Shown here: one piece after another, positions 7,714 through 10,314 of the stretch
Layout: each line of letters begins with the position of its first letter
Position numbering within the stretch: position 1 is the first letter of the stretch
DNA from: an uncultured Blautia sp.
GTDB lineage: Bacteria > Bacillota > Clostridia > Lachnospirales > Lachnospiraceae
DNA length: 19,282 nucleotides
NCBI GenBank assembly: GCA_900543715.1
Contig: UQSX01000056.1
Span: 1-19,282, forward strand
Direction: 5' to 3'
Notes under the pieces: generated by a model
What the model saw: only the letters and a program-made list of their open reading frames with translations
The model's database searches: none
What the model was told of the DNA's origin: nothing
Made by a program: the position numbers and the translations under genes

Positions 7714-7917
7714 CTACTCTACAGATACTACTTCGTATCCAGCATCAACCACAGCTTTTGTCAGGTCTTCTTTGCTTACGGAATCTGCGGCCTCAACATA
7801 GGCTTCTTTTTTCTCCAGATTTACTTCTGCCTTTACACCTTCCATACCATTTAAGGCTTTTGTCACTGCAGCCTGGCAGTGAGGACACATCATACCTTCG
7901 ATCTTCATTGTATACAT
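7714..7917 (-). CDS. Possible nested in-frame CopZ-like copper chaperone inside the copA 3' end
   Basis: The last 67 codons of copA form a complete HMA domain of CopZ size, with the Cu(I) site GMMCPHC at residues 8-14 of the nested product. On the minus strand the sequence AAGGAGG (7926-7932) lies 8 nt before the in-frame ATG at 7917, a near-ideal Shine-Dalgarno in the middle of a reading frame. A second ATG, two codons upstream (7923), is only 2 nt from it and is less suitable. The nested product would be a free cytoplasmic chaperone delivering copper to CopA. It could instead mark a recent fusion of formerly separate copA and copZ genes, with the old site retained but unused. Expression is inferred. 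Confidence 0.5.
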   Translation of the reverse strand: MYTMKIEGMMCPHCQAAVTKALNGMEGVKAEVNLEKKEAYVEAADSVSKEDLTKAVVDAGYEVVSVE

Positions 7918-10314
7918 ATTCATTTCCTCCTTATTTTCAACCGCTTCTGCGGAAGTATTTACTATCTGTGTATTCCCTGTCTGCCCATTGATTTTTTCTG
8001 TTGTCCGGACAGACTCTGTCTCTTCCTGCTGAGGCTTTTTCAGCACATGGAAAAATCTCAGTCTGAGAGCGTTTGACACCACAAAAAGACTGCTGAGGCT
8101 CATAGCCGCCGCCCCGAACATAGGACTTAATTTCAACCCGAAGGCGGTATAAAATACGCCTGCTGCCAGAGGGATCCCGCATACATTATAAAAGAATGCC
8201 CAGAAAAGGTTTTCTTTTATATTCCGGATCACTGCCTTGCTCAGTCCTATAGCTGTCACCACATCCAGCAGGTCATTCTTCATAAGAACAATATCTGCGC
8301 TTTCTATCGCCACATCTGTACCTGCGCCAATAGCAATTCCCACATCTGCTCTGGCAAGGGCCGGGGCATCGTTGATCCCGTCTCCCACCATGGCTACCTT
8401 CTGTCCACTTTCCTGAAGTCTCGCCACTTCTCTTTCCTTATCCTGGGGAAGGACCTCCGCGATCACCGTATCAATATCCAGCTGCCGCTGAATGGCCTTT
8501 GCGGTCCTTTCGTTGTCTCCTGTAAGCATGATAACCTGAATTCCCATTTTTTTCAACTCCCGGATGGCCTGGGCGCTGGTAGGCTTTATCACGTCTGCGG
8601 CTCCGACCACACCCAGAAGCTCTTTCTCATCTGCAAAAAGCAGTGGAGTTTTTCCTTCTCCTGTAAGGGTTTCCAGATAGTCTTCAATGGCGGAGCAGTC
8701 TATTTCTTTTTCCTTCATCAGCCGGAGATTTCCCGCATAGTATTTCTTCCCTTCAATGACCGCTTCTATACCCATGCCTGCCACTGCGGAAAATCCGGAA
8801 GCTTCCGGCAGAGAGATCTTTTCCTCCTCCGCTTTGGCAAGAACTGCTTCTGCAAGAGGATGTTCGCTTTTTTTCTCCATAGCCGCCGCGATCTTCAGCA
8901 GCTCTTTACTGTCCGTCTTTACCCCATAGATATCTGTGACTACCGGTTTTCCCTGGGTAATGGTTCCTGTCTTATCCAGGACCACACTCTGAATATTATG
9001 AGTGACTTCCAATGCTTCTCCTGACTTGATCAGAATACCATTTTCCGCCCCTTTTCCCGTTCCCACCATGATCGCCACAGGAGTTGCCAGCCCCAGGGCA
9101 CAAGGGCAGGAAATCACCAGAACGGAAATGGCGCAGGACAGGGCAAATTCAAATTCTGCCCCTGCCAGAATCCATGCAACAGCTGTGATCAGAGCGATCG
9201 TCATCACAATAGGCACGAAAACTCCCGCAATCTTATCTGCGATCTTGGCAATAGGAGCCTTGCTGGCGCTGGCGTCCTCCACCAGACGGATGATCTGGGA
9301 AAAAGTAGTGTCATCTCCTACTTTGGAAGCTTTCATACGGAAAAATCCAGCCTTGTTCATAGTTGCAGCAATAACCGAGTCTCCCGGTACTTTCTGCACC
9401 GGAATGCTCTCTCCTGTGATCGCCGCTTCATCAATACTGGTAGTTCCCTCCAGCACCACGCCGTCGGCCGGAACGCTGCTTCCCGGCTTCACCTGAAGGA
9501 TATCTCCAATCTGGATCTCCTCTGCAGGGATCTCCACTACTGTCCCGTCCCGCTCTACGAAGGCAGTCTTTGGCGCCATATCCATCAGTTTGTTAATAGC
9601 CTCGCTGGTCTTGCCTTTTGACCGGGCCTCCAGATATTTTCCGATGTTGATCAGAGCCAGGATCATTACCGCCGATTCAAAATACAGATCATGGAGATAC
9701 CGGCTTACCAAATCCAGATCTTGTACCCCAAGTCCATGCCCCATACGGTAAATGGCAAAAATGCCATATACCAGAGAAGCTGCAGAGCCTACGGCGATCA
9801 GTGTATCCATATTCGGCGCTCCATGGAATAAAGTGCTGAAGCCTTTTGTATAATAAGCCCTGTTAATATAGATCACCGGAATACACAGCAGAAACTGGGT
9901 CATGGCAAATCCCACTGCATTTATCGTACCGTGGAGAAATCCCGGAAGAGGCAGTCCCACCATATGTCCCATGGACACATACATCAGAGGGATCAGAAAG
10001 ATAAAAGACCAGATGGTCCGCTTCTTCATATATTCCATGTGTTCCTGCACCGGGTTGGCGCCCGACTCCCGTCCCTTCTGCTTCTGAGGGGAGCTTTCCT
10101 TTTTCCCCTGGATGCTGGCCCCGTACCCTGCATGGACCACTGCGTCTATGATTCCCTGCTCCCGAATCACTGCATCGTCAAATTCCACCTGCATACTGTT
10201 GGTCAGCAGATTCACGCTGACCTCTTTTACCCCTTCCAGCTTACTGACGCATTTTTCAACTCTGGAGGAGCAGGCAGAACAGGTCATCCCTGTTACGTCA
10301 AATTTTTCTTTCAT
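7714..10314 (-). CDS. copA: Cu(I)-exporting P1B-type ATPase with metal-binding domains at both ends
   Basis: 866 residues. It pumps Cu(I) out across the cytoplasmic membrane using ATP. The N-terminal HMA domain (1-68) has GMTCSAC (Cys12, Cys15). The core shows TGES (300-303) in the actuator domain, CPC (403-405) in the transport helix, the phosphorylated Asp447 in DKTGT, HP (485-486), and GDGINDAP (644-651). The helix 7 YN (709-710) and helix 8 MSLSS (738-742) mark the copper(I) subgroup. A Gln/Glu/Thr-rich linker (about 760-797) leads to a second HMA domain at 800-866 with GMMCPHC (Cys810, Cys813), an unusual position. Its SD TAGGAGG overlaps the csoR stop codon, 12 bp upstream. An internal ribosome site precedes the C-terminal domain (see the separate entry). 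Confidence 0.97.
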   Translation of the reverse strand: MKEKFDVTGMTCSACSSRVEKCVSKLEGVKEVSVNLLTNSMQVEFDDAVIREQGIIDAVVHAGYGASIQGKKESSPQKQKGRESGANPVQEHMEYMKKRTIWSFIFLIPLMYVSMGHMVGLPLPGFLHGTINAVGFAMTQFLLCIPVIYINRAYYTKGFSTLFHGAPNMDTLIAVGSAASLVYGIFAIYRMGHGLGVQDLDLVSRYLHDLYFESAVMILALINIGKYLEARSKGKTSEAINKLMDMAPKTAFVERDGTVVEIPAEEIQIGDILQVKPGSSVPADGVVLEGTTSIDEAAITGESIPVQKVPGDSVIAATMNKAGFFRMKASKVGDDTTFSQIIRLVEDASASKAPIAKIADKIAGVFVPIVMTIALITAVAWILAGAEFEFALSCAISVLVISCPCALGLATPVAIMVGTGKGAENGILIKSGEALEVTHNIQSVVLDKTGTITQGKPVVTDIYGVKTDSKELLKIAAAMEKKSEHPLAEAVLAKAEEEKISLPEASGFSAVAGMGIEAVIEGKKYYAGNLRLMKEKEIDCSAIEDYLETLTGEGKTPLLFADEKELLGVVGAADVIKPTSAQAIRELKKMGIQVIMLTGDNERTAKAIQRQLDIDTVIAEVLPQDKEREVARLQESGQKVAMVGDGINDAPALARADVGIAIGAGTDVAIESADIVLMKNDLLDVVTAIGLSKAVIRNIKENLFWAFFYNVCGIPLAAGVFYTAFGLKLSPMFGAAAMSLSSLFVVSNALRLRFFHVLKKPQQEETESVRTTEKINGQTGNTQIVNTSAEAVENKEEMNMYTMKIEGMMCPHCQAAVTKALNGMEGVKAEVNLEKKEAYVEAADSVSKEDLTKAVVDAGYEVVSVE

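Follow-up and report, generated by a model that had tools for sequence, protein, structure and literature searches.

The window analyzed here is the whole stretch of 19,282 nucleotides from an uncultured Blautia sp. (contig UQSX01000056.1). On its minus strand lies copA (10314..7714), which encodes a Cu(I) P1B-type ATPase of 866 aa with an HMA domain at both the N- and the C-terminus. A profile search found PF00122, PF00702 and two PF00403 stretches in the protein, and the TIGR01511 cut-off (CopA, Cu(I) P1B-ATPase) was passed with 605.8 bits against a cut-off of 397. Among the matches listed, the closest named relative was the copA of Candidatus Blautia merdipullorum, with 93% identity. The N-terminal HMA covers residues 5-64 (10123..10302, minus strand). 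From the NALRL motif, where the pump body ends, to the C-terminal HMA runs a poorly conserved linker of 47 codons (7918..8058, minus strand), which the alignment showed to be rich in indels among relatives.

Directly upstream of copA is a gene for a csoR-type metal-sensing repressor (10327..10587, minus strand; PF02583, 91 bits), which may control the copA mRNA. A gene for a ZIP-family metal transporter (PF02535, 10715-11494) lies on the same strand, upstream of csoR-copA. Downstream, a gap of 10 nt (7704-7713, minus strand) separates the stop codon of copA from the ATG of ispF (7131..7703, minus strand), and ispF was also the downstream gene in two Blautia relatives read at that place (L099 and L104).

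The copA linker contains an internal Shine-Dalgarno sequence (SD), AAGGAGG (7932-7926, minus strand), which is read in phase 0 (AAG GAG G) and is followed after 8 nt by an in-frame ATG, Met800 (7917-7915, minus strand). This arrangement had been noted in the sequence-only reading, and the coordinates proved correct when checked on the minus strand. AAGGAG occurs only once in the whole copA CDS. An extra C-terminal HMA at residues 800-866 had been described as well; consistent with this, the frame that begins at Met800 (7714..7917, minus strand) comprises 67 codons and holds a complete HMA with a CPHC motif. Its predicted product, MYTMKIEG...VSVE, matched the whole PF00403 profile (1-62 of 62) with 50.6 bits, above the cut-off of 24.8. 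The NCBIfam CopZ cut-offs were not reached by this 67-aa product, the best being NF047957.1 with 67.2 bits versus 85. Its best sequence matches among solved structures included copper-transporting ATPase 2 and CopZ. There were also 50 matches to free-standing predicted proteins of 67-68 aa with identities of up to 91%, many of which come from short contigs and could represent truncated or split copA genes. Judging from its domain, the nested product would work like a copper chaperone and would be expected to carry copper.

Two further in-frame ATGs are found nearby, at 7923 (Met798) and at 7908 (Met803), and both were rejected as candidate starts. The former is only 2 nt from the SD and is not conserved in the aligned Blautia relatives, and the latter is 17 nt from it. 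When the window was aligned with 12 chosen relatives of the Blautia group, the AGGAGGA core and ATG 7917 were invariant, while the linker around them was rich in indels. Met798 was Ile, Thr or Lys in most of these 12 relatives. Because Met798 is mostly replaced and ATG 7917 is invariant, 7917 is the likelier start.

To score this pattern in other genomes, we used the anti-SD match within a 15-nt stretch ending 3 nt upstream of the start codon at the domain boundary. The best start codon of a 13-codon stretch was taken, alike in the data and in the null, and for the null the synonymous codons were permuted within each gene with the protein fixed. The first sample consisted of the 80 copA loci among the matches listed by a similarity search, 71 of which had a C-terminal HMA in the same frame. 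The SD was at least 5 nt long in 70 of the 71 genes and at least 6 nt in 57, compared with 32.3 and 17.6 in the null. Gene by gene the permutation was weak, with 12 of 71 genes below 0.05 and a median of 0.185, and its strength lies in the sum. At the other in-frame ATGs of this sample (n = 1795), 4.6% had an SD of at least 5 nt and 1.1% one of at least 6 nt. Even copA's own start, in the first 80 listed loci, had an SD of at least 5 nt in only 49 of 78 cases, versus the 70 of 71 at the internal start.

The wider sampling comprised a genus sample (20 genomes, 17 with a match) and a family sample (120 genomes, 99 with a match), both around a Blautia relative, together with five phylum-level searches that differed in their E-value limits. 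The latter gave matches in 18 of 198, 24 of 149, 19 of 101, 12 of 149 and 26 of 100 genomes, the search of 101 covering mostly the same genomes as that with 24 of 149. The matches of these searches include split and free-standing HMAs. A subset of the matches was fetched, among them 30 family loci, 58 more family regions and two genus regions. The search profile (A1) was built mostly from site-bearing genes and may therefore slightly favour linker peptides that resemble theirs; such a bias acts on the protein and leaves codon choice untouched. With each locus represented by a single gene, the distal domain used in cases of two, and identical copies dropped, 197 distinct fused copA genes were obtained.

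Before the start at the C-terminal HMA, an SD of at least 5 nt was present in 180 of the 197 fused genes, whereas the synonymous null gave 95.7 (maximum 112 in 300 draws). For at least 6 nt the count was 139 against 49.0 ± 5 (maximum 62), and for at least 7 nt it was 69 against 20.0 (maximum 32), again in 300 draws each. The SD-start pattern is far beyond chance. Similar proportions were obtained from 141 representatives below 85% identity, chosen from 163 genes, where SDs of at least 5, 6 and 7 nt were found in 128, 100 and 46, versus 69.3, 36.5 and 15.5 in the null. At the other in-frame ATGs of the 163 fused genes, 1.2% reached 6 nt (n = 3076). The C-terminal HMA had its CxxC in all 163 of these genes. 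Some ATG, GTG or TTG was present at the domain in 195 of 197 genes, a weak indicator given that a 13-codon stretch was allowed. In two SD-bearing genes the ATG was replaced, by TTG (L020) or GTG (L067), and the start with an SD was otherwise ATG. The pattern is not special to the window genome, and most copA genes of the same layout carry it.

The codon counts point to a signal in the RNA. At codon -4, GAG was used 133 times and GAA 10 times (background 45% GAG, p 1e-34), whereas codon -3 showed the opposite, with 13 GAG and 74 GAA. Likewise, codon -5 had 85 AAG and 18 AAA, and codon -6, the opposite way, 6 AAG and 48 AAA. Where codon -4 encoded glycine, GGA was found 25 times and any other Gly codon once. 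The first G of GGAGG falls at codon position 3, 1 and 2 in 146, 31 and 3 of the 180 genes, so that all three frames occur, and the peptides spelled by the SD in these frames are KE-, GG- and RR-like. Conservation of the peptide KEE is ruled out as an explanation by the protein-preserving null and by the three frames. Taken together, the synonymous null and the codon counts indicate that the SD is kept by selection beyond the needs of the protein. The sequence-only reading had proposed a nested CopZ made by internal initiation; the SD and its spacing turned out to be strongly kept at synonymous sites across homologues of the same layout, rather than lost among them, and this conservation supports the proposal.

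RNA structure near the internal start was also low, at -2.1 kcal/mol versus -11.2 kcal/mol at other internal ATGs (n = 179). Compared with synonymous shuffles, the values were -2.05 and -3.27 kcal/mol, with less structure in 142 of 180 genes. Because the shuffles were nearly as low, the low structure is mostly owing to the composition of the linker.

SD-like sequences within genes have been proposed to pause ribosomes. With the pump body on one side of the site and a folded domain on the other, an internal SD there might slow elongation so that the pump or the HMA folds or inserts properly, with no new start being made. Such pausing needs no start at a fixed distance, yet the spacing was 8 nt in 128 of 180 genes, and also in 30 of the 41 genes whose start is off the usual place. 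The distance from the start to the aligned beginning of the domain ranges from 1 to 7 codons, and the SD shifts along with the start; the two behave as one unit. In addition, in the split relatives and in those that lack copA, described below, the same SD-ATG stands where a normal gene begins. We consider programmed pausing very unlikely.

Alternatively, the domain could be freed by another route, either by proteolysis in the linker or from a short transcript that begins at a promoter inside copA. The linker is long and variable, which would suit such a release, and differential transcripts beside frameshifting are indicated for E. coli by the title of Drees et al. as cited in PMC7558416. A simple scan of 7600-8500 found no sigma-70-like promoter where 1.0 was expected, and an internal promoter in copA was set aside on that scan. 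Moreover, proteolysis would not conserve an SD, and a short transcript would still use the same start, so we think it extremely improbable that either route accounts for the pattern. The E. coli chaperone is N-terminal, and we looked for its frameshift route in the window as well. In-frame X XXY YYZ heptamers of the window copA occur only at codons 419, 454 and 527, with none before 419. The N-terminal HMA thus has no slippery heptamer close to it, and with no sign of the E. coli route we rejected a frameshift of that type for the window copA.

Rearranged relatives bear on how the site is maintained. Two genes, L175 (G097) and L192 (G117), have two tandem C-terminal HMAs. The SD and ATG precede the distal one only, and the stretch examined at the proximal one contains no start codon. 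Among split copA-copZ neighbours, an SD of at least 5 nt precedes copZ in 15 of 18. One of the split loci, L268, shares 94% DNA identity over 1.8 kb with the fused L259. In L268, small linker indels shift copA out of register with copZ, so that the two frames are separated and the copA TGA overlaps the copZ ATG, while the SD and ATG are the same as in L259 and the HMA frame is intact; this is a single genome and may hold a sequencing error. In another genome (G018; L104:1462-1758 / L196), copA is absent from the locus, and a CopA search of 4 kb returned the C-terminal part only, with AAGGAGG, the ATG and the HMA frame retained directly before ispF. Elsewhere this genome has an 869-aa frame with one HMA match. 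By eye, the stretch just upstream of its copZ-like frame may be a remnant of the csoR end. A further candidate for a natural split, G009 (L195:176-2733), has an intact copZ frame and was given little weight, because the two frame breaks in its copA may reflect a pseudogene or sequencing or assembly errors.

These relatives raise the question of whether the site is a relic of fusion. In that case copA and copZ would once have been neighbours, the copA stop would have been lost, and the old ribosome-binding site of copZ would persist as a useless fossil. Split neighbours do exist, and a fusion would inherit the site that most of them carry; a C-terminal metal-binding domain is also attributed to Archaeoglobus CopA in a reference title of PMC7558416. 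However, the sampled trees contain few changes between the fused and split forms. In a quick tree of 114 pumps the label changed 5 times (16 in shuffles; at least 3 changes are forced by starred branches), and in a FastTree of 213 rows it changed 4 times. These trees include 17 split rows only, leave out copA genes without any C-terminal HMA, and, of 111 inner branches, have 56 open. In a starred group of 51 rows in the quick tree, all but L268 are fused, and the SD reaches at least 5 nt in 46 and at least 6 nt in 33 of the 50 fused genes.

Divergence is considerable, with a median of 0.59 changes per column on the end branches of the quick tree and a median of 1.6 changes per site in 400 random fused pairs. 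At such divergence an unused SD is not expected to last. Unconstrained synonymous sites should have been scrambled, yet the SD and the GAG preference at codon -4 persist. A fossil would also not be expected to shift with the start and change frame, nor to stand at the last of two tandem domains only. We therefore give little credence to a fusion relic. A recent copA-copZ fusion, which the sequence-only reading had offered as its alternative, fits poorly with the few label changes and the deep divergence at which the SD is still present, and the strong synonymous constraint led us to reject it as the main account.

An SD of at least 5 nt is missing from 17 of the 197 fused genes, two of which also lack a start codon close to the domain. 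The SD is interrupted (GAGG) in some of the site-less genes and absent in L066, L144, L160, L181, L183, L193 and L222. L066, from Frisingicoccus caecimuris, is the sole exception in the first sample. At this fused copA without a site (L066 / L083, G005:C10), another small HMA frame lies 15 nt downstream. Regarding the genomes themselves, a separate CopZ-like frame is present in G005 and G095, and a second copA, which carries the site, in G139, while the HMA frame of G124 has 124 aa. G144 offers no more than a weak HMA frame of 78 aa, and the one candidate in G101, of 89 aa, was not among the PF00403 matches. In 33 chosen genomes, the site and a separate copZ gave no clear picture of a trade-off, because many site-bearing genomes also hold other short HMA frames and three site-less genomes among the 33 have no clear substitute for CopZ. 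L106-L108 are frames of 125-136 aa that have a hydrophobic beginning, a stretch rich in cysteine and an HMA at the C-terminus, with no start codon adjoining the domain, and they represent a different HMA family in the genomes sampled.

Plasmid records gave five matches, four with the fused layout. Read by eye, three of these four have an SD of at least 5 nt, namely TAAGGAGG in Ruminococcus albus, GGAGG in Subdoligranulum and AAGGA in Butyrivibrio; the Roseburia plasmid has only GAGG.

Based on these comparisons of sequence, copA is very probably a two-product gene that encodes a pump and, by in-frame internal initiation, a free CopZ-like chaperone. Ribosomes that start at 10314 would produce the full-length pump, including both terminal HMAs, while others would bind the exposed AAGGAGG in the linker of the same mRNA and initiate in the cell at ATG 7917, in the same frame, to yield a free 67-residue CopZ-like Cu(I) chaperone. 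The SD and the start would be held by selection at the RNA level, and the protein sequence of the linker would hardly matter. The C-terminal HMA stays part of the pump too, where it may function in cis.

In-frame internal initiation is known in bacteria, for example in the IF2 forms of infB, the short form of cheA, and clpB. As in these genes, a second in-frame start inside copA would give an N-terminally shortened product. What sets copA apart is that its short product corresponds to an entire domain, one with a free-standing protein family, and that the pattern is kept across large distances. The CopA of Archaeoglobus fulgidus also has an N-terminal domain. Like the window pump, it carries a C-terminal metal-binding domain or HMA, as stated in a title in PMC7558416.

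E. coli copA is reported to give rise to a chaperone by programmed -1 frameshifting in PMC5009743 and PMC10187127 and in the reference titles of Meydan et al. 2017 and Drees et al. 2017. In both cases one gene would give a pump and an HMA copper chaperone of roughly 70 aa. The mechanism differs, however, being frameshifting in E. coli and, as read from sequence, an internal SD and ATG at the C-terminal domain in the window. Otherwise, a separate copZ gene in a copA-copZ operon is the usual case, according to PMC10187127. Such operons encode the same proteins, and the split relatives have the order copA then copZ with the same kind of SD, whereas in the window no stop codon separates the two and copZ is contained in the copA frame. 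We found no description of internal initiation in copA in the titles and abstract starts of the open-licence papers listed, although the riboproteogenomic surveys among them could hold a copA entry. Thus, in-frame internal initiation is already known as such, and its use in copA was not found described.

The route is probably widespread. It is likely that copA genes with a C-terminal HMA in Bacillota and in at least some Actinomycetota, Spirochaetota and Synergistota are dual genes with an internally started chaperone, in which the fused and split forms interconvert and the SD-ATG-HMA unit stays constant. The phyla are those of the search centres chosen, such as L035 (Bifidobacterium), L047 (a Spirochaetaceae MAG) and L073 (a Synergistaceae MAG), and contigs of MAGs can be misplaced. 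For work on internal initiation, these genes offer a set of synonymous-site constraints replicated in nature, and they are a warning that nested genes of this kind escape gene finders. If our reading is true, such genomes are annotated with a single pump gene and without copZ, although the pump's mRNA also yields the free chaperone, at a rate of its own. C-terminal internal initiation would then stand beside the frameshifting of E. coli as a second, independent solution within one copA gene, and it may explain the source of the chaperone in genomes that have this pump and no copZ adjoining it.
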